IMG/VR virus record: IMGVR_UViG_3300011261_000032
Span: 1 to 30,109 of that record
Length of the DNA: 30,109 bases
DNA from: a virus
Strand: one strand, 5' to 3'
Within the stretch, counting starts at the first letter, position 1; each line of letters starts with the position of its first letter. Under the pieces are notes generated by a model. It had not been told where the DNA came from and did no database searches. It was given only the letters and a program-made list of their open reading frames with translations. The translations under genes and the position numbers were made by a program. This document shows positions 4,980-30,109 of the stretch, in pieces.

Positions 4980-5087
4980 TTACTTGCTAATATCTATTTC
5001 ACTTAACAGCTTTTTATACTTCTTATCTTTTTTCAAGGCAGCAAGTATCTGCCTGTATTGCTTCGGGTCTAGGTTTAGCTGTATCAC
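4980..5087 (-). CDS. Small hypothetical protein, 35 aa
   Basis: 35 residues (IQLNLDPKQYRQILAALKKD... SEIDISK), strongly helical and basic. It starts at GTG, which shares a base with the TAG of the gene before it; AAGG lies about 8 bases upstream. Too short for family assignment. The coupling and the protein-like composition are the only support. Confidence 0.45.
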   Translation of the reverse strand: MIQLNLDPKQYRQILAALKKDKKYKKLLSEIDISK

Positions 5088-5200
5088 TACAGCGCCTTGT
5101 GATCGTTAAGATACATAGCCAAGTCTTTAACTGTGGCCTTTGGGTTGATTGCCAATAGTGCGGCAAATATCAGTTTAGTTATTTCGTCATGTAAACGCAT
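5087..5200 (-). CDS. Small hypothetical protein, 37 aa
   Basis: 37 residues (MRLHDEITKLIFAALLAINPK...YLNDHKAL). It looks like a small helical protein; the pattern NPKATVKDLAMYLNDHKAL resembles part of a winged-helix or HTH unit, but that is weak. The ATG follows the recurrent leader AAAAAAGGGTTCAA, also found before the genes at 6235, 27678 and 29441, which supports expression. Confidence 0.55.
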   Translation of the reverse strand: MRLHDEITKLIFAALLAINPKATVKDLAMYLNDHKAL

Positions 5201-5223
5201 TTGAACCCTTTTTTATTTATTGC

Positions 5224-5448
5224 TTAAACCTCTAATGGGTTCTTTGCAGCTTCAAGATCAAGATCTTCTTCAATCAACTGTGTAGCCTTGACAAGTTTAG
5301 CCGTCGCGCTTTCTACACCGATAATATCAGTGATGTTTACTTCAGCTCCTTCAATAGCAGCAGAACATACTTCACGTAACTTATCCACTTCGCCTTCGAT
5401 GTCAGCCTCGATCTCGATTATGTATCTGACTTTTTTAACTTCGCCCAT
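5224..5448 (-). CDS. Hypothetical protein, 74 aa
   Basis: 74 residues, acidic. Segments VRYIIEIEADIEGEVDKLREVCSAA and GAEVNITDIIGVESATAKL suggest an alpha/beta fold. It has a strong SD site (AAAAAGGAG) 6 bases before the ATG. Oddly, the reading frame stays open upstream to about 5535 with protein-like sequence but no start codon (see the finding on 5449-5635). No family recognised. Confidence 0.7.
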   Translation of the reverse strand: MGEVKKVRYIIEIEADIEGEVDKLREVCSAAIEGAEVNITDIIGVESATAKLVKATQLIEEDLDLEAAKNPLEV

Positions 5449-5509
5449 TTGGACTCCTTTTTGTTTGAGCTTACGCTCTATAAGATACTCCTGTGAGTAC
5501 CCTAAGAAC

Positions 5510-5635
5510 TTATTTAAAGCAAGAGTCTTTAATGTGTCTTCTCGTCTTTATCTTCACCGGGCAATAGTAACCCTTGAACTTCTCTAAAGTAGCCTTATAA
5601 TCGTCCGTGGTAGGTATTGGATTAATGTATGCCAT
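5510..5635 (-). CDS. Small hypothetical protein, possibly frameshifted
   Basis: 41 residues (MAYINPIPTTDDYKATLEKF...CPVKIKTRRHIKDSCFK). The N-terminal 25 residues look genuine; the C-terminus is basic and less convincing. After the Gly-Tyr-Tyr-Cys-Pro segment the other two frames give more protein-like continuations (GEDKDEKT, then LKTLALNKFLGYSQEYLIE). The gene may therefore be a broken version of a longer one, or be shifted by sequencing error. The start overlaps the previous gene by 14 bases. Confidence 0.4.
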   Translation of the reverse strand: MAYINPIPTTDDYKATLEKFKGYYCPVKIKTRRHIKDSCFK

Positions 5636-5870
5636 CTTCCATCTTCCTTAATGCTTTAATATGTCGCTTCCATTTAGGAATAAACTTGCTACTTGAACTT
5701 GGTCTTTTTGTGTGCTTGTTGATGTTCCATTCAAGTGCGTTTATTACATGTTCTGTGTCGTACACGTTGAAAAGGAATCGGTCTATGGTTGAGTCTACAG
5801 GCGAAACGTGTCTCCTGATGTACTTCTGTAAGCCGTCTATGTGTGTTATGTCTTTGCTTGTGAATCTCAC
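5622..5870 (-). CDS. Hypothetical basic protein, 82 aa
   Basis: 82 residues, Lys/Arg/His-rich C-terminal half (NKHTKRPSSSSKFIPKWKR), no family recognised. GTG start preceded by TAGGAGC, which also contains the stop of the upstream gene, so the two are closely coupled. A basic tail suggests nucleic-acid binding, but no motif is identifiable. Confidence 0.65.
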   Translation of the reverse strand: MRFTSKDITHIDGLQKYIRRHVSPVDSTIDRFLFNVYDTEHVINALEWNINKHTKRPSSSSKFIPKWKRHIKALRKMEDGIH

Positions 5871-5880
5871 TGTGTTGCTC

Positions 5881-6129
5881 CTAACTGCATGATGTTAACC
5901 CGTATGTCTTCCAAAAATACGGAAGTACATCTTCAGGATCAATCGATACTAACCCAAAGTGCTGAATGTTTTTCATCAGTTCGTTATACACGATGTCATA
6001 CACGTCTTCTATGCACTCCGCTTCTGTTAACTCAATGATTAACTCGGACTCTGTTTTTTCAAAGGCTAGTGTGATCTGTTTGCTTCTTGGTATTGTAGGC
6101 TTGTTGAATATGTTTGCATCAATTCTCAT
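5881..6129 (-). CDS. Hypothetical acidic protein, 82 aa
   Basis: 82 residues (MRIDANIFNKPTIPRSKQ...), acidic centre (ESELIIELTEAECIEDVYDIVYNEL), no membrane segment and no recognised family. Good SD site AGGAGG. It overlaps the end of the small TM gene upstream by 11 bases. Confidence 0.65.
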   Translation of the reverse strand: MRIDANIFNKPTIPRSKQITLAFEKTESELIIELTEAECIEDVYDIVYNELMKNIQHFGLVSIDPEDVLPYFWKTYGLTSCS

Positions 6130-6235
6130 TACATCCTCCTATCGTGTCGAATGCTTTTTCTATCAGCCAAACCCAGTCTATTGTATAGACAAAGATGATT
6201 AGTGCTGAGATTGCTATCATTGTTAGTGCTTCCAT
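6119..6235 (-). CDS. Small single-TM protein, 38 aa
   Basis: 38 residues. MEALTMIAISALIIFVYTI forms one membrane segment at the N-terminus, followed by DWVWLIEKAFDTIGG. It stands first after the promoter at 6265 and has the recurrent leader AAAGGGTTCAA before its ATG. Function unknown; a membrane micro-protein that alters the host envelope would fit, by inference. Confidence 0.6.
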   Translation of the reverse strand: MEALTMIAISALIIFVYTIDWVWLIEKAFDTIGGCNEN

Positions 6236-6264
6236 TTTGAACCCTTTCTTTCTTGATATTCCTA

Positions 6265-6276
6265 ATTGTAAACACT
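6265..6276 (-). promoter_or_regulatory. Promoter element AGTGTTTACAAT for small-gene operon
   Basis: Minus-strand AGTGTTTACAAT with TACAAT as -10 (6265-6270), followed by AG and an AT-rich start, then AAAGGGTTCAA and the ATG at 6235. The same 12 bases, the same preceding TTAAGC and the same downstream leader occur before the gene at 29441. The repetition is the main support. No clear -35 box. Confidence 0.55.
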
Positions 6277-6330
6277 TTAAGCTTAAGGAATGTTTAAAGG
6301 TGTACCGAATGAAAGTATATATAAAAGTAT

Positions 6331-6477
6331 TTACTTGTTGAATGTTTCTGATATGAGGGTGTGGACGTGGTATCGGTTAGGTTTCATGTTGTAGCCTACT
6401 ATGATAACAGTGGATAATATTATGAAGAAGATGACTATTATCAGGAGTAGAAGATCTTTGTATTCGTCATGCATCAT
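6331..6477 (-). CDS. Small TM protein at end of lysis cassette, 48 aa
   Basis: 48 residues: short charged start (MMHDEYKD), a long hydrophobic segment of about 20 residues (LLLLIIVIFFIILSTVIIVG) and a polar C-terminal tail. The ATG overlaps the stop of the endolysin gene (ATGA), so it is co-translated with it. It could be a pinholin, antiholin or spanin-like component; the topology alone cannot decide. Confidence 0.65.
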   Translation of the reverse strand: MMHDEYKDLLLLIIVIFFIILSTVIIVGYNMKPNRYHVHTLISETFNK

Positions 6478-7031
6478 ACGTACTCTGCACGATTCTTCCA
6501 CCCGTTCTTATACACTGCGAATGAAGGCTTTCTTTTTATGATGTCATCGTAGTATTTTAACTCTACCTCATCAAACATAATGTCGAACTTGTCAGGATCA
6601 AAAGAGTTTATAAGGCCGATAGTGACAGGGCCTACTTGACCATCTGCATCAGCCCCTACTAATTTTTGAGCCTTTCTAACAGCATTTCTTGTTCCAGCAT
6701 TTACAGCGAATACAAAAAGTTCAGTGGCTGTGTTGTCGTTGCGTATTTGATCCAATCGCATTCTATCCCAGAATTGACTCTTATAGAATTGCATAACAAG
6801 TTCTTTTAAGTGGCTGTTTAGGTAAAGTTCCCTGGAAGATACCGCCATGTTTCCTTGGTTGCGCTCTAGTGTATCCATTACTATAAACCATCCAAGCCAC
6901 TTAGGGTGAGCGTATTTGTATATGCCGGCTACTGTGTAGTCTCTCTCGGTTGAGTTCTTGTGAAGGTAGTTGCTTGAATTGCTAAACTCTAGCTTCATCA
7001 GTATCTCAAATGCTTTGTTAAAGTCCGCCAT
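6474..7031 (-). CDS. Endolysin, glycoside hydrolase family 108 with PG_binding_3
   Basis: 185 residues. The N-terminal two thirds fit the GH108 muramidase fold, in which a Glu near the N-terminus is catalytic; here KLEFSN at about residues 13-18 with Glu15, followed by ERDYTVAGIYKYAHPKWLGW. Residues about 120-185 (RKAQKLVGADADGQVGPVTIGLIN) match the PG_binding_3 domain that usually completes this family. It cuts the glycan strands of peptidoglycan at the end of infection. No signal peptide is visible, so it needs the holin to reach the wall. The SD-like AAGG sits close before the ATG. It lies between small membrane proteins in a lysis cassette. Confidence 0.85.
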   Translation of the reverse strand: MADFNKAFEILMKLEFSNSSNYLHKNSTERDYTVAGIYKYAHPKWLGWFIVMDTLERNQGNMAVSSRELYLNSHLKELVMQFYKSQFWDRMRLDQIRNDNTATELFVFAVNAGTRNAVRKAQKLVGADADGQVGPVTIGLINSFDPDKFDIMFDEVELKYYDDIIKRKPSFAVYKNGWKNRAEYV

Positions 7032-7032
7032 C

Positions 7033-7170
7033 TTAAAACCTTATTGTTAAATATGCTGTAATCGTGTAAATGAAGACCATTAAGGCAATAGCCTTGTGGA
7101 TTGTGTAGTCTGTGTCGATATGACACTTTATATCTCGTAAGGCATCTTTCTCGCTTTCTGTTAAGGCCAT
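7033..7170 (-). CDS. Small TM protein in lysis cassette, 45 aa
   Basis: 45 residues. A charged N-terminal half (MALTESEKDALRDIKCHID) precedes one membrane segment (HKAIALMVFIYTITAYLTI). The start overlaps the end of the coiled-coil gene by 10 bases and the endolysin ATG follows 2 bases after the stop. A holin accessory or antiholin role is possible from position only. Confidence 0.6.
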   Translation of the reverse strand: MALTESEKDALRDIKCHIDTDYTIHKAIALMVFIYTITAYLTIRF

Positions 7171-7616
7171 ATTACTTTAGATACAAGAAAGCCGATAATA
7201 GAAAGAACTGTACCTGCAGCAAGAACTGATAGACCGATCATTAGCCCGGATTTAAATGAACTTCTTTTATCCTCGTCCTTTTGTCTAGACTGAAGTTCAT
7301 TTCTTAGCTCCTGTATCTTTCCATTTTGTATCTCACTTTTTAACTCTGCATGCATCTGCTTTGCTTCTGTAAAAAAACTTACAATTAGTCTGCTCAGTTC
7401 TTTAACGTCATTTTTAACTTCTTTCACTTCGCCCTCGATTCCATCCATCCGGTCTTTGCCTTTGGAAAATCCTTCTTGCACAAAACTGTGCAGCCTCTCC
7501 TGACCAACTCTTAAGCCTTCAAGATCTTCTATAATCTCGTTGTCTTTGGTTTGCAGGTCTTTGATTATAGGAAGTTCACCAACTCTGTCATTGAGTTCTT
7601 GTTGTTGCGGTGTCAT
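7161..7616 (-). CDS. Coiled-coil tail-anchored membrane protein, possible lysis accessory
   Basis: 151 residues. Residues about 20-115 are highly charged and heptad-like (EVKEVKNDVKELSRL and similar), predicted coiled coil. Residues about 124-147 (GLMIGLSVLAAGTVLSIIGFL) form one membrane segment next to the C-terminus. That is the layout of an i-spanin turned around, with the coil facing the cytoplasm if C-tail-anchored, so spanin function is doubtful. It sits between holin and endolysin. Confidence 0.65.
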   Translation of the reverse strand: MTPQQQELNDRVGELPIIKDLQTKDNEIIEDLEGLRVGQERLHSFVQEGFSKGKDRMDGIEGEVKEVKNDVKELSRLIVSFFTEAKQMHAELKSEIQNGKIQELRNELQSRQKDEDKRSSFKSGLMIGLSVLAAGTVLSIIGFLVSKVIWP

Positions 7617-7655
7617 CTCATTGCCTTTATGTGTGTTATATAATTGTATCGCATA

Positions 7656-8123
7656 TTACTTTGTGATTCCCTTTGATTTCTCATATGTTCTAAGTGTACC
7701 AAGCCCAAGCATAGCACCGAGTAGATTCATAAGCAGCCAACCATCGATGTGAGGCGGTTTAAGTGATAATAACTCTGCCTTTGTTAACTGAATCTTATCA
7801 AACACAATGTAGATGTTTAAAGCCCATTCAGCAATAGGGAACAGCACAAATACAAGAGAAAAGCCTGTTACTGCTATCCATCCAAGAAACGGCCTCCATC
7901 CGCTTTTAAAGATACTTGCAGATATTGCATCAATCTTTGCTAGTTCAATGTTTTTCTCTCTTAGACTTGCTTCTACCTTCTCGGCTTCTACTAGTAATTG
8001 CTCCAACTTGATGCGTTCTTCAGGTGGCAAGTCTCCGGTTAATGCAAAACGTATGCCTTCCGCTGCTGTTGAGACTCCATTGCCTACACCTTCAGCTGTC
8101 TTACCCCAATCGAATAATCCCAT
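7656..8123 (-). CDS. Three-TM holin (GTA-type holin family)
   Basis: 155 residues. After an amphipathic N-terminal region (WGKTAEGVGNGVSTAAEGI) and a charged coil (PPEERIKLEQLLVEAEKVEASL), the segment SGWRPFLGWIAVTGFSLVFVL is the hallmark of the three-TM holin family described for gene-transfer-agent release (PF11351). Two further hydrophobic stretches follow at about 87-105 and 127-145. It would open the inner membrane for the endolysin. The SD-like leader AAAAAGGGTTTAGT precedes the ATG. Confidence 0.82.
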   Translation of the reverse strand: MGLFDWGKTAEGVGNGVSTAAEGIRFALTGDLPPEERIKLEQLLVEAEKVEASLREKNIELAKIDAISASIFKSGWRPFLGWIAVTGFSLVFVLFPIAEWALNIYIVFDKIQLTKAELLSLKPPHIDGWLLMNLLGAMLGLGTLRTYEKSKGITK

Positions 8124-8124
8124 A

Positions 8125-8376
8125 CTAAACCCTTTTTATCATTTTAAATGGATACTTAATCCAACACGCTATAGAAGCAACACCAAATATTAGTATGCCT
8201 CCGACTACTTTGTTTTTAACCAAACACTTAATAAACTCAGTCGAAGCGCACCCGCCTTGTGGGTCTTCTTCATCATCGTGAATTTCACAGCAAGTGCTTA
8301 AGTCAAACATCTTCCACTTTATGCCGTCCCACTGTGGCCACTTTTCAAAGAAGCCTGAGCAGTGATCCTTTTCCAT
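8125..8376 (-). CDS. Small phospholipase-A2-like protein, 83 aa
   Basis: 83 residues, six to seven Cys. STCCEIHDDEED at residues 27-38 contains CCxxHD, the active-site His-Asp signature of secreted/prokaryotic phospholipase A2, followed by GGC and a Cys in FIKCL. This order (CC..HD, GG, C) and a C-terminal hydrophobic segment (VVGGILIFGVASIACWIKYP) recall a group of small phage proteins that look like minimal phospholipases. It has no signal peptide. It is coupled by TAATG to the gene upstream and directly precedes the holin, so attack on membrane lipids during lysis is a fair hypothesis. The family call rests on the motif alone. Confidence 0.55.
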   Translation of the reverse strand: MEKDHCSGFFEKWPQWDGIKWKMFDLSTCCEIHDDEEDPQGGCASTEFIKCLVKNKVVGGILIFGVASIACWIKYPFKMIKRV

Positions 8377-8777
8377 TAGAACACAATCCCATTAATGTGT
8401 GCTAGATATTCCTCGTCAGTTAAAGGAACTCCTGCAGTAAGCAGTGCATAGTTTTTAGCTATGATTGCTTTGTACCAAGTGAGTATCTTTGTTGCTTCTG
8501 CTCCAAATGTTGGGTCGTCTTCCCATAGTTTAACTGTAGCTAATGAGTCGTAGTCAAGTTCTTTTAACTTGTCTGACACAATACCCATGTAGATATTTTT
8601 AAATCTGCCTTTAGAGATTTCAATCAGTTCATCGGTTGTGTATGTTGGCATGACTTCTTTACCTGAAGTTTCCCATGCTAAAGCATTTTGGTAATTCTCA
8701 TCACCTGGCGCTGTCTCATGTATACCGTTAATTAAGAACCCATTAGCTGTTCTTCTAAGGTTTAGTATTTCTATCAT
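8376..8777 (-). CDS. Putative tail fibre assembly protein
   Basis: 133 residues. It directly follows the tail fibre gene with an ATGA overlap, the usual place for a fibre chaperone. Start MIEILNLRRTANGFLINGI, then a helical C-terminal half with conserved-looking Trp/Tyr residues (TKILTWYKAIIAKNY) and ending DEEYLAHINGIVF. The length and helical C-terminus fit small tail-fibre-assembly proteins, but I recognise no diagnostic motif; a minor virion protein is an alternative. Confidence 0.5.
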   Translation of the reverse strand: MIEILNLRRTANGFLINGIHETAPGDENYQNALAWETSGKEVMPTYTTDELIEISKGRFKNIYMGIVSDKLKELDYDSLATVKLWEDDPTFGAEATKILTWYKAIIAKNYALLTAGVPLTDEEYLAHINGIVF

Positions 8778-10108
8778 TGTGCTACCTCCGTAACTTTTAT
8801 ATAAGAGCTTGCTGCACCACCATACTTCTGAACACCGACAACTCCATTTAATGTTAACGTAGATGCAGATTGACCACCTGCTCTTAGCGTAATTGTTATA
8901 GGCGATATCGACCCTGTTGATAATTCAGCAGATAAAGGAGCTACAAAAACACCTGTTGACCTTGGTTGAACTGCAACTACTGCTATTGAATCTAATGATA
9001 AATCTGTAAATAATGCTATGGAGGCAGTTGCATCTATTGATAATTGCCCAAAAAATGAGGCTTCTATAATCAGCTTGCTATTTTCACTTACAGGAGTAAA
9101 TGAAAGAGACATGAATTGTGTACCCTCACTACTCTGTGGAATAGTATCATCTACAGGAATTATTGCTGTGCCTGTTGCTACCGTACCAGTATAGAAGCTA
9201 TCTTCCTGTAGCACGCTTACACCATTTAAATCAATAATATTAGTGCCATCGTTATATAAAGTTCTTGCCCCATTAGCAGGGATAGCCACGCCTGAGCCTA
9301 CTGATGTCTTAACAGTAATCGTCTGAGCAGTATCATTCTGAACTATAAAGGACTTCTCTACATTATCAGTTATCACGTTTCTTCCGGTTGTAAGCACTAC
9401 TCCTGTATCAGCAAGGACTATGCGCCCGTATGAGTTCTGCGCTGAAGTTAGCGTATAGTCTGCATCTGTTGTGAAGTCGTGCGTAACAGTTTGAGCATCC
9501 CATAGTTTAGCGTTCTCATCTAACGTTGTGGTGTCTACTTTGTCAGCTAGAAGTGCATTTGTTTCTGTCTTGTTGTAGACATCTGCGGCAGTCCATATAA
9601 ACCCGTCTGCTTGTAGTGAAGATACATTTACAATGGCTGTACCAGCTGCGTTCCATTGGAAGAAGTTTAACGGCACAGGCGGAGGTACTGCTGTTGAGAT
9701 GCCCTGAGCTGATTCGGGTAGTTTCAAGAACCTTGTGTTATCGCTTTCTTTATCAGCAATAAGGTATGTTTGATAATTCTGGTCATTGTTTAATGTGTCG
9801 GCAAGAAGATCTCCATTTGTCTGATACTCGATAAGTCTGTCAATATCTAGTGATCGCACAAGTGTTATCTTGTCTCCGGCTGATGCTGCCACAACAAGTG
9901 TGATAGTTCCGCCTGCATCACCTGATACTACTACTGTGTAGTCAGTTGTAAGGATCAAAAGGTCTGCTACATCATCAGGTGTTTGTCCTGAAGGTGTCAA
10001 GTAAACCTTTATGTCTGCTGCAGTGTATGCCTTGAATACGTATATGAATACTGATTGTCCTGCGGTAGCAACATATTCTGCTCGGCCAGGTGAATTATTA
10101 AACGCCAT
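8774..10108 (-). CDS. Tail fibre protein with T7-type N-terminal domain
   Basis: 444 residues. Residues 1-120 match the podoviral fibre anchor (FIYVFKAYTAADIKVYL, TTDYTVVVSGDAGGTITLVV, DKITLVRSLDIDRLIEYQ, LNNDQNYQTYLIAD), the part that binds the tail in T7 gp17. A short Pro-rich link (PPPVP near 142) and a Ser/Thr-rich, low-complexity shaft follow. The C-terminal 140 residues form a beta-rich tip ending AASSYIKVTEVAQ, a tip seen on other phage fibres. It should recognise the host surface. Good SD site AAAGGAG. No peptidase or depolymerase motif seen. Confidence 0.85.
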   Translation of the reverse strand: MAFNNSPGRAEYVATAGQSVFIYVFKAYTAADIKVYLTPSGQTPDDVADLLILTTDYTVVVSGDAGGTITLVVAASAGDKITLVRSLDIDRLIEYQTNGDLLADTLNNDQNYQTYLIADKESDNTRFLKLPESAQGISTAVPPPVPLNFFQWNAAGTAIVNVSSLQADGFIWTAADVYNKTETNALLADKVDTTTLDENAKLWDAQTVTHDFTTDADYTLTSAQNSYGRIVLADTGVVLTTGRNVITDNVEKSFIVQNDTAQTITVKTSVGSGVAIPANGARTLYNDGTNIIDLNGVSVLQEDSFYTGTVATGTAIIPVDDTIPQSSEGTQFMSLSFTPVSENSKLIIEASFFGQLSIDATASIALFTDLSLDSIAVVAVQPRSTGVFVAPLSAELSTGSISPITITLRAGGQSASTLTLNGVVGVQKYGGAASSYIKVTEVAQ

Positions 10109-15981: not shown

Positions 15982-16572
15982 CTATTTATACCCCCATCTA
16001 AAACCACCTGCTGTGTCTGCTTTACCCAAGCAACATGCAGAAATCTGACTATTGCCTATACCTAGCTCTCTTTGAACTTCCATTGTAGAATTATATGATT
16101 TGATGAGTTCTCCTTTCAGAGTATATTGAAATACTTGCTTGCTATGTTTGTTGTTCACACCATTTCTTCTGTCATTGTGACCTTTTGAGTTGTTTTCTCC
16201 CCATGTCATTAGCTGTATATTAGAGAAAGTATAATGGATATAATCATTTTTTCTATCTACTGATGGGCATAACTCTTTTTTATATCCACTCGCCTTCCAC
16301 TCGCTATAAATTTCATGAAATTCCTTTTGTGAATATAGCCATTCCTTAAGTTCTTGCTTTGTGTATTCTGGAAATCTATGCCCTCTAACCTTAGATCTTT
16401 GTTTTTGGCTTCTGTATATTACAGTTATGAGACCTTTTTTTGTCCTAGTGTATTCTTTCTGTTCTTCATAAGCACATGATTTACATAATGCCTGTAGCCC
16501 ATCTTTATATTTTTTATTATTCCCAAACATAGACAATTCTTTTTCTTCTTTGCAAATGTTACAAGTTTTCAT
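15982..16572 (-). CDS. Free-standing homing endonuclease with NUMOD1 domain
   Basis: 196 residues from MKTCNICKEEKE. There is a zinc-binding pair at the N-terminus (C4/C7, C30/C33), then a nuclease core with CPSVDRKNDYIHYTFSNIQL and GENNSKGH (about 102-132), which resembles HNH-family cores. A C-terminal NUMOD1 DNA-binding repeat follows (VFQYTLKGELIKSYNSTMEV...GGFRWGYK, 147-196). The start at 16572 is chosen because GGAGGA lies six bases before it; an earlier in-frame ATG at 16596 would overlap the nozzle gene. It sits in the middle of the tail module and interrupts the otherwise coupled order, as intron-less homing genes do. Confidence 0.82.
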   Translation of the reverse strand: MKTCNICKEEKELSMFGNNKKYKDGLQALCKSCAYEEQKEYTRTKKGLITVIYRSQKQRSKVRGHRFPEYTKQELKEWLYSQKEFHEIYSEWKASGYKKELCPSVDRKNDYIHYTFSNIQLMTWGENNSKGHNDRRNGVNNKHSKQVFQYTLKGELIKSYNSTMEVQRELGIGNSQISACCLGKADTAGGFRWGYK

Positions 16573-16585
16573 TTTATCCTCCATG

Positions 16586-18379
16586 TTAATATTCAATCTC
16601 GCTGTCTATGTTCAACAACATAAACGGCAAAGGGTTTACTTGCGTGATAGTCACTTCAACAAGTCTTTCTGTGTAACCAAACAAGTATATCTCTTTTGTT
16701 CCGGTAAACGGTGTCGGTGCTTCGTCTAACACCACTGTAAACATTCTGTCGCTCAGGTAGTTGTGCATCACGTAAACACCTAGACTTTCATTTAGGTTAA
16801 GTATAACACGATTTACGCGCTTTCTGAGGTTAACTATAGCTCCGCTGTCTGAAGTCTCTACATTGAGCGGAAGTGTTCTTACTGACACATTGTAATTAAG
16901 GCCTACTTCTAGGTTATATGCGTCTCTTGTAATGTCTACGTGGTTAAGATCTGTTCCATCTATAACAAACGTTGCATCATCTTGGATAGAGTTGTCTGCA
17001 ATCACCTTGAATATTAATGACCCGTCAACCAATGCATCTTTGTAGTCAGTAGTGATGCTTGTAACCGGAGTACCTGTTGAAAAGTTTGTATAAACAACAT
17101 TGTTTAAATCTTTAACTACGTTGTCAACACCTTTAACCACATTTACAGTAGTTGGTTTTGTACCAGCTATAACCACGTTATGATCTGTGTATGTTCCTTC
17201 GTCTAGCCTCTCGATGTATATCTCAGCATTTCTGTTAACAAGAAAGTATGTTTCCTTGCCTACGACTGTCACATCTTCAAATGTTCCCTGTGTAGTCCAT
17301 CTAGTCCACCCTAAGATGTCCTCATGTCTCATAGAGTTCATAACCGCTACTGTGCCGTCTCCGTTTACTACATACACAAAGTCACTAATGTCTGTTGCAG
17401 TTCCTCGTATAGTTGCCATCGATCTAATATCATTTACAATGTGTGAAGATATAAGTGATGCATTAACCGAGATGTAACTGTCTTCATTAAATGACCATAC
17501 AAACTGTCTAAGTGTGCGAGCTGAACTGTCGATAAACAGAGTAGCACCATCAACAGATATTGGCTTCTCTTTTATAGACCCGTATGATGTCTGTCTGCTC
17601 CACGACGAATCAGTAGGTGTGATCGCAGTAGATGAATTGTAGAACTCACCGCCTGATGTAAACAACTGCAAGTGTCTGCCTGAGAATATACCGGTTATCG
17701 CGTTGAATTGGTCAGTGTCTAGCGTATCGAATATCGCATCATCTGCCGCACCTGTTCCGACATTGAAGTTATAGAAGTCATTTACAACAGAACCCCAAAC
17801 GCTGTTTATTTTATCTCTTGACCCGCCAAAGAACAATCTGCCTTGGTGAAACGTACAAGTCCTTGGCCATCCTCTTGTAGCAGACCATACAGGCTCTACC
17901 CCAGCGCCAAAATCAAACGTTGGTATGTTTGTCAGCGTGATAGTGGTTAAGGCCCAGTTTGTGTCTGAACCTTGTCTCTGTAGTTGCATAGGCGCGTAAT
18001 CTTCATGCACGATAATCATAGTGTCAGCTGATTGAATAACATCAAGGTTTCTAATGTCTTCAATAGTGGCGTATGTCGATACTTCCACAGACTGAATGAC
18101 TCCATCTTTAAAGATAGTGATTGCAAGCGGTGTGAACATGATTAGATAGCTTTGAGTTACGCTGAACACAAAACCTTCTATCCTTGCATCTTCGCCTACA
18201 TAGCTATCTGTAATCTTGGCTAGCCCTGGACGTCTTCTCAGGCCACCATGCGGAAGGATCAGAACATTCTCAGCACTTGTGAGGCCGTTGTAGTATTTGT
18301 TGATGTCTATACGACCACGTAGGGTAGGTGCTATCTCTCCGGCTGTCATGTTTGACTGGATAAGTCTTGACTTGCTCAT
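16586..18379 (-). CDS. Tail tubular protein B (nozzle), T7 gp12-like
   Basis: 597 residues. The N-terminus (SNMTAGEIAPTLRGRIDINKYYNG, AENVLILPHGGLRRRPG) is the strongly conserved opening of podoviral tail nozzle proteins. The rest is beta-rich, as expected for the propeller-like nozzle. It is shorter than T7 gp12 (about 790). It forms the lower end of the tail through which DNA leaves. Coupled to tail tubular protein A by TAATG. Confidence 0.85.
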   Translation of the reverse strand: MSKSRLIQSNMTAGEIAPTLRGRIDINKYYNGLTSAENVLILPHGGLRRRPGLAKITDSYVGEDARIEGFVFSVTQSYLIMFTPLAITIFKDGVIQSVEVSTYATIEDIRNLDVIQSADTMIIVHEDYAPMQLQRQGSDTNWALTTITLTNIPTFDFGAGVEPVWSATRGWPRTCTFHQGRLFFGGSRDKINSVWGSVVNDFYNFNVGTGAADDAIFDTLDTDQFNAITGIFSGRHLQLFTSGGEFYNSSTAITPTDSSWSRQTSYGSIKEKPISVDGATLFIDSSARTLRQFVWSFNEDSYISVNASLISSHIVNDIRSMATIRGTATDISDFVYVVNGDGTVAVMNSMRHEDILGWTRWTTQGTFEDVTVVGKETYFLVNRNAEIYIERLDEGTYTDHNVVIAGTKPTTVNVVKGVDNVVKDLNNVVYTNFSTGTPVTSITTDYKDALVDGSLIFKVIADNSIQDDATFVIDGTDLNHVDITRDAYNLEVGLNYNVSVRTLPLNVETSDSGAIVNLRKRVNRVILNLNESLGVYVMHNYLSDRMFTVVLDEAPTPFTGTKEIYLFGYTERLVEVTITQVNPLPFMLLNIDSEIEY

Positions 18380-24904: not shown

Positions 24905-25070
24905 TCTCTGCTTCTTTATATAATATTGCACTGATTATCTCATCTGCATTAAACCAGTTCTGACCCATTACATTGTGAACAACTAGCACTCTGTCTATGC
25001 AATCAGAAGTAATCACGTCTTTTATTATGATCTCGCTTCCGCCTTGGTCTGTTATTATCATGTTTGTCAT
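24882..25070 (-). CDS. Hypothetical protein after terminase, 62 aa
   Basis: 62 residues (MTNMIITDQGGSEIIIKDV...), short beta strands then an acidic helix (ADEIISAILYKEAEND). The ATG shares bases with the terminase stop (TAATG) and GGAG lies eight bases before it inside the terminase gene. No family recognised. Confidence 0.6.
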   Translation of the reverse strand: MTNMIITDQGGSEIIIKDVITSDCIDRVLVVHNVMGQNWFNADEIISAILYKEAENDSNNQR

Positions 25071-26356
25071 TAGAATACGCTCCATTCGTTTTTATTGTCT
25101 CTTCTCTCATGCTGTTGTATAGGCTTTCGTCTAGTGAACTGTAGAGGGAATAGCTTAGCAACTAGGTAGCCAAGCGCATCGATGCCATTGTTATCATGCC
25201 CGTTCTTCTTGTCAGGCATCTTAGTGTTCTCATCGTATGCCTGTTGTTCTAGCGCCTTTGTTAGCTTAGGGCATCTTACTGTGTTGACATAAGCCCTTCT
25301 CATCCCTTGTGCATTACAAAACAGCGTGTTAAGTCCGTTAACTCTATCCATGATCGCAGGGTTCTTATTGTCAGCTCTAACGCTAAAGCCTGCTTGTCTT
25401 AATAGTTTGATGTCTGATGTGTTGGCCTGCACTGACTTTCTAGCATCACCGGCAGCATCTGGATACACGTATACTCTTCGCCCTGGATACTTAGCTTCTA
25501 GTGTCTCAACAAGTTCTGGTGTATCAAACAGTCCTATGAACTCATCTACAGCATAGACATAATTGTCTTTAACGAGGCAAGCCACTGCAGACATAGCACC
25601 AACATTAAAGTCAATACCGATATGTATATCACTCGCTCCATCATCTTCTCTACTCGTGTCATTAAGTGTTCTATCATATTGTGTGTATACCGTTCCTGAT
25701 GTTAAGTTTGTAAACTCACCGTTAAGATAAGCTTCGATTAGTTCTGCCGGGTACTGAGATCTCATTGTGTCTATGTAATCCTGTGGCAGGTGGTAGTTGT
25801 CGGTGGTCTTCGCCCGGATCAGCTTCTTTCCTTCGCCTTCCTCTTCTACAAAGATGCGATACATAGCTCGGTAGCCTTCCGGTGTCGATACGATAACCAT
25901 CTGTCTTACATTGCCAACACGGATACGGCCAAGCAGCTTAATAAATGCATTATAGGCCAGTTCAGTCTTTGCTGTGTCGAACTCATCCATTACAACATAG
26001 GCAGCATTGATACCGATAAGGCGCTCATATCCTTCCATGCTTTTACAGATGATACGTGTCTCTTTGCCGTCAATGTCACAATAGAAGATACTCTCACCGG
26101 TCTTAAACTCATACGTGATGTCAAAGTAGTCTAGTGCTGTCTTGATCTCAGGTATAAGAATTTGTGTTAGTAGTGGGAAGTTCGGCTCAGTTACAATTCC
26201 ATCGCATCCAGGGTTAGCCATTGCAAGCATGATCGCTTTACGTGCTACTGCAAATGTCTTGCCTGCACCAAACCCTGATACAAGTCCAAGTATCTTTGTG
26301 TCTGTGTCCTTGATTAGGGCGAATTGGTGCGGTAGTAGTTTTAGTTGTTTAGTCAT
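25070..26356 (-). CDS. Terminase large subunit
   Basis: 428 residues from MTKQLKLLPHQFALI. Walker A GFGAGKT at about residues 28-34, Walker B YVVMDEFD near 130, motif III-like IVSTPEG (about 175), and the nuclease domain starting HIGIDFNVGAM (about 250) with further acidic residues in VYVYPDAAGD and DGIDALGYL-like NNGIDALGYLV near the end. It pumps and cuts genome concatemers into the prohead through the portal. The start is placed at the ATG overlapping the small-subunit stop by 8 bases; a TTG six codons upstream is possible. Confidence 0.9.
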   Translation of the reverse strand: MTKQLKLLPHQFALIKDTDTKILGLVSGFGAGKTFAVARKAIMLAMANPGCDGIVTEPNFPLLTQILIPEIKTALDYFDITYEFKTGESIFYCDIDGKETRIICKSMEGYERLIGINAAYVVMDEFDTAKTELAYNAFIKLLGRIRVGNVRQMVIVSTPEGYRAMYRIFVEEEGEGKKLIRAKTTDNYHLPQDYIDTMRSQYPAELIEAYLNGEFTNLTSGTVYTQYDRTLNDTSREDDGASDIHIGIDFNVGAMSAVACLVKDNYVYAVDEFIGLFDTPELVETLEAKYPGRRVYVYPDAAGDARKSVQANTSDIKLLRQAGFSVRADNKNPAIMDRVNGLNTLFCNAQGMRRAYVNTVRCPKLTKALEQQAYDENTKMPDKKNGHDNNGIDALGYLVAKLFPLQFTRRKPIQQHERRDNKNEWSVF

Positions 26357-26831
26357 TGACTGCTTTATCCTCAACTATCTGCACAACCGTAGGCGTGTTA
26401 TTGTTCTGTGTGAGCTGTTGCACGTCTATCTTCGGTGCGTGTCTGTCTGCTACTTTCAGTGTGATAGCTAGTTTGTCGTTAGCATTTGCTATTGTAAGGG
26501 CATCATTAGGGGTATCTATCTGATCTATCATAGTGTTTAACTTGCCTGCAAGCTTCTCTGCATTTCCATTAATAAGGTTTAGATACTTAGTTTTCTTATC
26601 AACTACCTCATCTATTGCTTTCACTTCTTGGTAACTAACTTCTGAAAGCTCCTTAACAAGGGAAACTTTCTTGGTAACTTTATCAGTATGCTTTGGTAAC
26701 TTTCCTTTAGTTATCTTACCTATTGTTACATGGCTAGTATTGTACTTTGCAGCTAGGTCTCTTTGTGTGTAGTGACCTGTGTGGAAGTCTGCTAGTACCA
26801 ACTCTCTTTGCTCGTCTGTGAGTCTAGCCAT
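26349..26831 (-). CDS. Terminase small subunit
   Basis: 160 residues. An N-terminal helix-turn-helix (YTQRDLAAKYNTSHVTIGKITKG, about 17-39) for DNA recognition is followed by helices for oligomerisation and a C-terminal PTVVQIVEDKAVND tail that may contact the large subunit. It lies directly upstream of the terminase large subunit and overlaps it, the usual arrangement. It selects the phage DNA for packaging. Confidence 0.82.
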   Translation of the reverse strand: MARLTDEQRELVLADFHTGHYTQRDLAAKYNTSHVTIGKITKGKLPKHTDKVTKKVSLVKELSEVSYQEVKAIDEVVDKKTKYLNLINGNAEKLAGKLNTMIDQIDTPNDALTIANANDKLAITLKVADRHAPKIDVQQLTQNNNTPTVVQIVEDKAVND

Positions 26832-27003: not shown

Positions 27004-27212
27004 GATTCTATGCCCTCACAATCAAGCATGTGCTTAAAATCATTTTTCTTGTGTAGCCTCTTTATGTACTCCTGCTCTACCTCGAAATATAACTGGGCAG
27101 TAAGACTACCTTCTTTAAGCATCCATACCAACTCATCATTCTTTACATCTTCAAAAGTCTTGCCGTCTGTGAGTATCTTATCTAAGAACTCTTTAGCTGT
27201 TAATTTGCTCAT
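27000..27212 (-). CDS. Hypothetical protein, 70 aa
   Basis: 70 residues, helical and charged (MSKLTAKEFLDKILTDGKTFEDV...), no family recognised. It overlaps its neighbours on both sides by 4 bases (ATGA), so it belongs to the operon leading into terminase. Confidence 0.62.
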   Translation of the reverse strand: MSKLTAKEFLDKILTDGKTFEDVKNDELVWMLKEGSLTAQLYFEVEQEYIKRLHKKNDFKHMLDCEGIES

Positions 27213-27526
27213 TGCTTTTTAGCCTCTTCAATACTTTTAAACACTTTATCCGCTTCATCTATTGAGCCAACTGTAATTGACAACTGATAGTCTTCAGGCT
27301 TTGTAGGGTTGGCCATTCTTTCTATAATCCCTTGCTCACCTTCAAATATCTTCTCATACTTCTTGATGTCATACCGGAGGCTAGCGTTCTCTTCTTCTAA
27401 GCGCTGCTTCTGCTTCTTTAACAGTTCGCACTCCTTGATCTTGAAGTCCAGGCTTAACTCTAAGTCTCTAAAGTCATACGGCTTACTGTTCTGATATGTT
27501 CTCTCTGCTTTTGTAAAGTTTGTCAT
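27209..27526 (-). CDS. Coiled-coil hypothetical protein, 105 aa
   Basis: 105 residues. The middle (KIKECELLKKQKQRLEEENA, to about residue 60) is a strong coiled coil; the C-terminus (YQLSITVGSIDEADKVFKSI) looks like a small strand-helix unit. No function recognised. ATGA overlaps on both sides. Confidence 0.65.
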   Translation of the reverse strand: MTNFTKAERTYQNSKPYDFRDLELSLDFKIKECELLKKQKQRLEEENASLRYDIKKYEKIFEGEQGIIERMANPTKPEDYQLSITVGSIDEADKVFKSIEEAKKQ

Positions 27527-27678
27527 TTGATTGCCTCCACGGCTATGAATCCAAGTGCAATGATCGATACTATTGCTGTAATACCTATGAATGAGAAAAA
27601 GATTATGTCTACTGCATCTATATCGTCCATGATTCTTCTGTCGTATTCTCTTAGTTCTTCTGATATTTCGTCTTGCAT
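27523..27678 (-). CDS. Small single-TM protein, 51 aa
   Basis: 51 residues: acidic N-terminus (MQDEISEELREYDRRIMDDID) then one membrane segment (IIFFSFIGITAIVSIIALGFI). The start at 27678 is chosen because the recurrent leader AAGAAGGGTTCAC lies directly before it; a longer frame to 27738 has no SD site. It follows a promoter at 27746 and a leader hairpin at 27706-27726 (GTACAGG/CCTGTGC). Confidence 0.65.
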   Translation of the reverse strand: MQDEISEELREYDRRIMDDIDAVDIIFFSFIGITAIVSIIALGFIAVEAIK

Positions 27679-27745: not shown

Positions 27746-27754
27746 ATTATATCA
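27746..27754 (-). promoter_or_regulatory. Promoter TGATATAAT overlapping the barrel gene stop
   Basis: TATAAT (27746-27751) with an extended TGA that is itself the stop codon of the beta-barrel gene. It would start a transcript with a leader hairpin at 27706-27726 (7 pairs, 7-base loop), then the 51-aa TM protein and on into terminase. No -35 box. Confidence 0.5.
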
Positions 27755-28294
27755 CAGATTGAAGTTAACGCCTACAAAAACACCGAGGATCTTCTCATCC
27801 ATACCGATATTAACACCGCTGTATTCGTATGAGTCATAGCTGCGCTTCTTGTACTGCACTCCGGCTTCCATGTTTACATCTGTGCCAAGTTCAAAGATGC
27901 CACCGACACGTGCACCAACATCTGTAAAGTCAATATCTGTTCCATCAAAGTCTTTAGAACCTGATGCAAGCATAGCACCGATAAAGATGTTATCGATCAT
28001 GTAATCAACCTCAGCACCGATTGATACTGCACTACCTTCATTCATCACAAGCACATCATCTTTGTACTTCTCTGATGTTACTACACCAAGAACACGAACC
28101 GCATCAAACTGATAACCACCCTTTACTGCAAAGCCGATAGACTTAGTATCAAAACTTGCTGATGCTGTTCCGCCTGGGCCTGATACTGTTACATCTGATC
28201 CTACTTTTCCATATGTAAGTTCAGTGCCTACAACAAAACCATCTGCAAACGCACTTGCTGCAACTACCATTAATGCTAAAATAACTTTTTTCAT
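27752..28294 (-). CDS. Phage-encoded outer-membrane beta-barrel protein
   Basis: 180 residues. A clear signal peptide (MKKVILALMVVAASAFA, cut before Asp-Gly) is followed by alternating strand patterns of a small eight-stranded barrel (GFVVGTELTYGKVGS, SIGFAVKGGYQFDAVRV, AVSIGAEVDYMIDNIFIGAML, GARVGGIFELGTDVNMEAGV) ending FVGVNFNL. It should be exported and inserted in the host outer membrane by the Bam machinery. It closely resembles small barrels of Campylobacterota hosts, so it was probably acquired from a host. Good SD AAAGGATAG. Likely roles are blocking superinfection or altering the surface; inferred. Confidence 0.82.
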   Translation of the reverse strand: MKKVILALMVVAASAFADGFVVGTELTYGKVGSDVTVSGPGGTASASFDTKSIGFAVKGGYQFDAVRVLGVVTSEKYKDDVLVMNEGSAVSIGAEVDYMIDNIFIGAMLASGSKDFDGTDIDFTDVGARVGGIFELGTDVNMEAGVQYKKRSYDSYEYSGVNIGMDEKILGVFVGVNFNL

Positions 28295-28297
28295 CTT

Positions 28298-28393
28298 CTA
28301 TCCTTTGAATATTAAATATGTACAAGCGCCATAAAACGCAACTGTGAACGCTAGACCGGTTAAAAATACATACCCTCGTGTGCTAATCTTCAT
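28298..28393 (-). CDS. Small TM peptide, 31 aa
   Basis: 31 residues (MKISTRGYVFLTGLAFTVAFYG...LIFKG), one membrane segment with a basic N-terminus. It overlaps the upstream gene by 11 bases and ends four bases before the barrel gene ATG, whose SD site overlaps its stop codon. Function unknown. Confidence 0.5.
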   Translation of the reverse strand: MKISTRGYVFLTGLAFTVAFYGACTYLIFKG

Positions 28394-29503: not shown

Positions 29504-29971
29504 CTAAAACGGTATCTCATCTTCATCTCTATAAGGTATAGGAGGTTGATGTTGTGGCATCTTCTGCTGTGCATCTTTTCGTTGTTGATTTGCATATTCA
29601 CTTGCATACCCTTCATCTCGCTGTTGCTGTGCAGGCTGTTGATTATCTTCCTTGCCGTCTAGCATCTGCATCGTCTCAACAATAACGCTGTGCTTTGAGC
29701 GCTTGCTTCCGTCTTGTGCTTGCCATTGGTCAAACTTCAAACGACCTTCGACAAGTATCTTGCTGCCTTTGCGCAGATATTGGTTTGCTACCTCAGCGGA
29801 TCTTCCAAAAAAAGTAATGTCAATGAAGCACACTTCCTCTTTGCGCTCTCCGTTCTGTGTAAACTTTCGTGTAGTTGCAATGGCCGTGTTTGCTATTGCG
29901 CTTCCTGAGCTTGAATACCTTAGTTCTATGTCTCTTGTTAGATTTCCTACTTGTACTATTTTGTTAAACAT
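29504..29971 (-). CDS. ssb: Single-stranded DNA-binding protein
   Basis: 155 residues from MFNKIVQVGNLTRDIELRY. OB-fold signatures: VGNLTRDIELR, IANTAIATTRKFTQNGERKEEVCFIDITFFG, QYLRKGSKILVEGRLKFDQW. A Gln-rich disordered linker and the acidic tip RDEDEIPF follow, nearly the canonical DDDIPF that recruits partner proteins. It coats single-stranded DNA in phage replication and recombination. The start is placed after GGAGAATAAG; an earlier in-frame start seven codons upstream overlaps the previous gene. Confidence 0.95.
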   Translation of the reverse strand: MFNKIVQVGNLTRDIELRYSSSGSAIANTAIATTRKFTQNGERKEEVCFIDITFFGRSAEVANQYLRKGSKILVEGRLKFDQWQAQDGSKRSKHSVIVETMQMLDGKEDNQQPAQQQRDEGYASEYANQQRKDAQQKMPQHQPPIPYRDEDEIPF

Positions 29972-29972
29972 C

Positions 29973-30109
29973 TTATTCTCCAAATTCAGCACACAAAACC
30001 ATTAAGTAGTTTATGTGGCTATTTAATTCATCAATAGAAAGCTTTGTACTTGATACAGGCTTTCCTTGATCGTCTCTAGGATAATCTAAGTTTAACTCAG
30101 CTATCCAAA
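29973..30109 (-). CDS. Hypothetical protein, C-terminal 44 residues
   Basis: The gene runs off the right edge; only WIAELNLDYPRDDQ... to CAEFGE is visible, ending TAA one base before the SSB start codon, with the SSB SD site inside its last codons. Single-frame, protein-like sequence with no recognised motif. Confidence 0.6.
   Translation of the reverse strand, partial: WIAELNLDYPRDDQGKPVSSTKLSIDELNSHINYLMVLCAEFGE

Follow-up and report, generated by a model that had tools for sequence, protein, structure and literature searches.

Phage-encoded small outer-membrane barrels are already known. In lambda, the barrel Lom, of the Ail/Lom family (PF06316), is carried as a dispensable accessory gene of a tailed phage, and lom has been listed as non-essential and dispensable for plaque formation (PMC10695390). 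A viral structure library holds many small barrels from tailed phages, annotated there as COG3637, outer-membrane beta-barrel or OmpW, and the BFVD entries A0A6J5MAZ5 (COG3637-like) and A0A6J7XB88, both assigned to 'uncultured Caudovirales phage', belong to the same fold class. Phage genes that alter surface access for other phages are likewise an established class, with lipoprotein exclusion genes reported in 83% of mEpimmI coliphage genomes (PMC11893012). The marine phage Melnitz has curli pore genes of the outer membrane and a gene of S-layer type, and comparable ideas have been proposed for these (PMC9004378). Phages of sulfur-oxidising Campylobacterota, on the other hand, are almost unknown; a 2024 paper states that, up to that time, Sulfurimonas had no isolated and characterised phage (PMC11290706).

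Here we analysed a small barrel gene carried by the IMG/VR virus record IMGVR_UViG_3300011261_000032. The whole stretch of DNA examined, hereafter the window, is this complete linear record of 30,109 bases, which has no attached host chromosome. Its barrel gene is a new one of the known kind, Lom-like in concept and outside the Ail/Lom profile family, so that the first-pass annotation, which had called a phage-borne barrel uncommon, overstated its rarity in view of lambda Lom (PMC9836094, PMC10695390) and the many barrels in the viral structure library. What is new is the lineage (phages of Campylobacterota), the fixed place before the terminase genes, and the apparent use of that interval for varied exported proteins. 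The window protein differs from Lom in that the Ail/Lom profile is absent among its Pfam matches up to E 0.1, in the phylum of the host, and in lying before the terminase, whereas lom lies near the tail fibre genes. The two BFVD barrels come from other phage groups and are only 14-17% identical to it, their likeness being in fold class. The exclusion lipoproteins of coliphages, such as Lpp of the mEpimmI phages (PMC11893012), are accessory genes acting in the host envelope, as we propose for the barrel; however, Lpp is a lipoprotein whose exclusion has been studied by infection assay, while exclusion by the window protein, a barrel, is something we infer. The nearest chromosomal proteins are OMP_b-brl (PF13505) members of Campylobacterota, which resemble the phage barrel in length (about 180 amino acids), signal peptide, barrel family and terminal aromatic strand, the identity being 30-34% over the full length to proteins of the Sulfurimonas family. 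The phage barrels nevertheless form a separate clade, stand in a phage operon with a 31-amino acid transmembrane (TM) peptide and, in the case of the window sequence, fall below the Pfam profile.

The window carries a short-tailed phage gene order on its minus strand, with podovirus packaging, tail and lysis genes present. The order runs from a single-strand DNA-binding protein (SSB; 29504..29992, minus strand) through a run of small genes to a small terminase-like DNA-binding protein (TerS-like, phrog_4151; 26349..26831, minus strand), the terminase large subunit (TerL, with family matches to Terminase_6N/6C; 25070..26374, minus strand), a head-tail connector (PF12236) and capsid-region genes. 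It continues with a tail protein (phrog_376), internal virion proteins, a tail fibre, holin (7656-8123) and endolysin (6474-7031), followed by genes for a DUF6291 protein and an antirepressor of the AntA type. An endonuclease VII / NUMOD-type gene (15982-16596), probably a homing endonuclease insertion, separates the tail gene from those for the internal virion proteins. At its left end the window breaks off within a gene resembling a DNA cytosine methyltransferase, and at its right end within a NinB-like gene, both named by sequence reading; since both ends interrupt genes, the window is short of a few kb, expected to hold recombination genes, relative to the 32.9-kb full record of its relative L002, which has a YqaJ-type recombinase. 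The first-pass annotation had taken the barrel gene to be phage-borne and had named a chromosomal origin of the window as the observation that would speak against this. The TerL, head-tail connector, tail, holin and endolysin genes of this virus record, together with the synteny of the barrel in several related phages, bear out the phage assignment and lead us to reject contamination or a chromosomal origin.

The barrel gene occupies 27752..28294 on the minus strand and encodes 180 amino acids from an ATG start codon, exactly as first annotated, with an AAGGAT ribosome-binding site immediately upstream; promoter-like sites upstream of it, and terminator-like sites, did not rise above chance. 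The N-terminus, MKKVILALMVVAASAFA followed by DG, gives a canonical type-I signal peptide (residues 1 to about 17) in a rule-based test; signal peptides and lipoboxes were called throughout by rule and not by a trained predictor. The protein ends in GVNFNL, and the terminal F-x-L is found in all five intact copies, an ending typical of BAM substrates. A Sec signal peptide and a C-terminal aromatic/hydrophobic strand, the features that mark the small eight-strand barrel class, are thus both found. An AlphaFold2 model built from an alignment of five phage sequences only (mean pLDDT 84.4, pTM 0.74) has eight strands (20-39, 42-62, 66-77, 89-100, 103-116, 119-135, 140-153 and 161-179), which are antiparallel and close a barrel of the NspA/OmpX/OmpA-TM class. 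Comparison of the model with solved structures (Foldseek, VIA-align) returned small surface barrels, with NspA (1p4t) closest (Z 18.6, rmsd 2.3, 145 residues aligned, 21% identity) and OmpA, OprF, OmpW, OmpX and Ail also near. NspA is a bacterial surface protein, not phage-borne, and has the fold alone in common with the window protein. On the strength of the model we regard the protein with good confidence as a genuine eight-strand outer-membrane barrel, bearing in mind that a fold match establishes fold and not function.

Direct matching of the window protein to Pfam, PHROGs and NCBIfam gave nothing useful, and a PDB sequence search was uninformative. Weak Autotransporter matches were set aside as generic barrel similarity. 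The OMP_b-brl profile (PF13505) does not match the window protein at E 0.1; it matches the copies in L006 and L031 below its cut-off and the chromosomal relatives L119, L136, L137 and L138 above it, and the link of the window barrel to OMP_b-brl is, on these matches, one of homology through intermediates only. Outer-membrane enzymes such as PagL, PagP and OmpT rely on a catalytic histidine. The window, L002 and L006 copies have no histidine at all, and because this residue is missing we rejected an enzymatic role with PagL-, PagP- or OmpT-type chemistry as implausible. Cysteine is also absent from the window protein, which therefore has no lipobox of the kind expected in the outer-membrane lipoprotein subunit of a spanin. 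Extracellular loops were no better conserved than strands: mean pairwise identity was 0.42 across the loops and the outer halves of the strands, against 0.46 across the inner halves. A conserved ligand surface is therefore not evident.

The gene is present in five other IMG/VR viral contigs (six including the window) at 67-37% identity. Full-length homologues were found in L002 (67%), L006 (50%), L015 (39-41%, on alignments) and L031 (38%), and in L032 (5445-6021) the gene is split by a frameshift, either a real mutation or an assembly error. In all six contigs it lies in the interval upstream of TerS/TerL. L031 and L032 have a TerL of a different family, yet keep the barrel and its neighbour with the 'YQNSKPY' motif. 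This packaging-gene mosaicism is located at L031:2970-4265 and L032:8045-9364, where the other terminase family is found while barrel and neighbours stay (the connector was seen in L031). A chance open reading frame was ruled out, given that four other viral contigs have full-length homologues uninterrupted by stop codons and that pN is well below pS in every pair of phage barrel copies. For the window and L002, dN/dS is about 0.19 with dS near saturation, and the pattern indicates that the gene is under purifying selection and has long been maintained. The barrel is missing from relatives whose TerL is up to 80% identical (G002-G005). One of them, G005 (L009 record; L132), matches the window at 76-80% identity in its connector and tail proteins. 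Because such close relatives are without the gene, and differ from the carriers at a set interval, we class the barrel as an accessory ('moron'-type) phage gene. The G005 record also has, at about 8.9-18.8 kb, some 10 kb without convincing genes on the main coding strand, perhaps with genes on the opposite strand. Most of these relatives are fragments, and the long barrel-carrying genomes number two (the window and the L002 record). Repeat scans of viral sequences, starting from other members or from the five-member alignment, found no new carriers, and in the phage collection searched the barrel had no homologue, all matches being chance ones (E of 1 or more).

The host was assigned by gene similarity and not by culture. 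Over about 110 residues the window SSB reaches 84% identity to SSBs of Campylobacterota, with most best matches in Sulfurimonas or relatives, and TerL proteins 42-51% identical to that of the window occur inside 4 of 397 Campylobacterota genomes, two of them on chromosome-sized contigs. Together with the barrel homologues described below, these matches suggest that the host is probably among the sulfur-oxidising relatives of Campylobacter (Campylobacterota), in line with the earlier guess. The related TerL genes lie in prophage-like regions (L182-L189); the two examined, L186 and L189, have TerS and methylase genes in common with the window lineage and different structural genes. No barrel was found in the 19-kb pieces covering the prophage-like regions with a related terminase in the four Campylobacterota genomes. 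A first scan of genome contigs with the barrel alignment found no homologue, and distant host homologues surfaced only by profile searches of whole genomes. The phage-barrel profile then identified such homologues in 49 of the 397 Campylobacterota genomes (E 1e-4 or better) and, at E 1e-9 or better, in 15 of the 228 searched from the Sulfurimonas indica family. The best full-length identity to these chromosomal proteins was 30-34%, and no host copy above about 34% was present among the best matches of the 397 and 228 genomes. Two chromosomal homologues examined in context were flanked by housekeeping genes, e.g. MutS2-like and MurC-like genes named by sequence reading. A tree of 50 sequences grouped the five intact phage copies in one clade (support 99/99) apart from the chromosomal OMP_b-brl proteins, and gave no firm branching point for this clade among them. 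The simplest reading would be one old capture, presumably by the phages from Campylobacterota, followed by spread within the phage lineage.

The barrel gene had been placed in the middle of early genes, but its actual position is between the SSB and terminase genes, at the early/late junction. The two small TM genes that had been noted beside it are both present. Upstream, a gene for a 31-amino acid single-TM peptide (28298..28393, minus strand) has its stop codon 3 nt before the barrel ATG and recurs in L002 in the same place and spacing with 58% identity; the L015 record has a 30-amino acid TM open reading frame at the equivalent position. Directly downstream, a gene for a 51-amino acid protein with one TM segment (27523..27678, minus strand) had no detectable homologue, and L031 has a 54-amino acid TM protein in the equivalent place. 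Beyond it, a 105-amino acid charged protein with a 'YQNSKPY..DLELSL' motif (27209..27526, minus strand) is conserved beside the barrel; BLAST groups it with genes in L002, L006, L015, L031 and L032 and, less strongly, with genes of relatives that have no barrel. The suggestion of an envelope-modification module holds in part: the upstream TM gene is co-conserved and other exported proteins occupy the interval in barrel-less relatives.

We tentatively favour, at somewhat less than even confidence, an accessory barrel that inserts in the host outer membrane and alters the surface of the infected cell, most likely for superinfection exclusion. During infection the barrel and its 31-amino acid inner-membrane neighbour would be made together; Sec would export the barrel, and the BAM machinery of the host would fold it into the host outer membrane. 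There it could occupy or mask a surface feature used by competing phages, acting as a binding barrel in the manner of NspA or OmpX, neither an enzyme nor a wide pore. We propose this because of the fold, the accessory pattern, the co-conserved TM peptide and the other exported proteins of the SSB-terminase interval, and surface modification or superinfection exclusion, and with it the receptor blocking or replacement raised in the first-pass annotation, is by analogy the leading functional hypothesis. Such a conserved envelope gene, its chromosomal counterparts identified, offers a specific candidate means by which these phages may modify or protect the surface of the host. Kinship with a chromosomal outer-membrane family would also suit a barrel that replaces or supplements a host outer-membrane protein, for envelope stability or for the benefit of a carrier cell, with no anti-phage role. 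Temperate kin are suggested by the AntA-type antirepressor and by the related terminases within Campylobacterota genomes, and deletion of Ail, a fold-mate, is reported to upset outer-membrane lipid balance in Yersinia (PMC8508112). We consider host-envelope support or lysogenic conversion of this kind rather unlikely, as no integrase or repressor was recognised among the genes searched (the early region having been searched in part) and the barrel is absent from all 19-kb prophage pieces examined.

A role in lysis, in which the barrel, perhaps with its 31-amino acid inner-membrane partner, destabilises the outer membrane at the close of infection and replaces a missing outer-membrane spanin, is a serious rival, though it appears unlikely. 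Small barrels of this fold are normally stable residents of the outer membrane, and the holin and endolysin genes lie about 20 kb from the barrel, although the barrel gene itself adjoins the late operon. The lysis regions of the window and the L002 full record yielded no lipobox (o-spanin) gene, and a relaxed search of them (window 5000-9200; L125, 26.5-30.8 kb of the record) also gave no convincing candidate, while barrel-less G002, G003 and L026 have one. This pattern is not clean, since barrel-less G005 is likewise without a convincing lipobox gene, and it comes from only two long barrel-carrying genomes, both open-ended records. Others have suggested that lambda Lom has a role in lysis, since lom is co-transferred with the holin gene and expressed during the lytic cycle (PMC9836094). 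That the barrel is carried by metagenomic assemblies only might point to a virion component, or to functionless passenger DNA from misassembly or recent host contamination. Either is very improbable: a signal peptide does not suit a virion protein, five intact copies under purifying selection occupy the same interval in independent assemblies, the best host matches stop at about 34% full-length identity, and the conserved synteny already largely refutes this reading.

Several barrel-less relatives have other small signal-peptide proteins, without strong family matches, in the SSB-terminase interval, which suggests a set of envelope-directed functions that can replace one another. A more far-reaching proposal, which we consider decidedly improbable, is that the pre-terminase interval is a dedicated cassette for interchangeable exported proteins (either the barrel and its 31-amino acid inner-membrane peptide, or Cys-containing periplasmic proteins) and that the barrel version is an undescribed two-membrane exclusion or lysis device, possibly replacing spanins. 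The recurrence of exported proteins before the terminase suggests where more such functions could be sought. Those of the barrel-less relatives are about 80-108 amino acids long, mostly have several cysteines and are encoded just upstream of TerS/TerL, at L126:16327-16572, L128:4924-5169 and 5169-5432, L131:245-487, L132:5745-5996, L027:130-759 and L026:3023-4011, the last with three in tandem.
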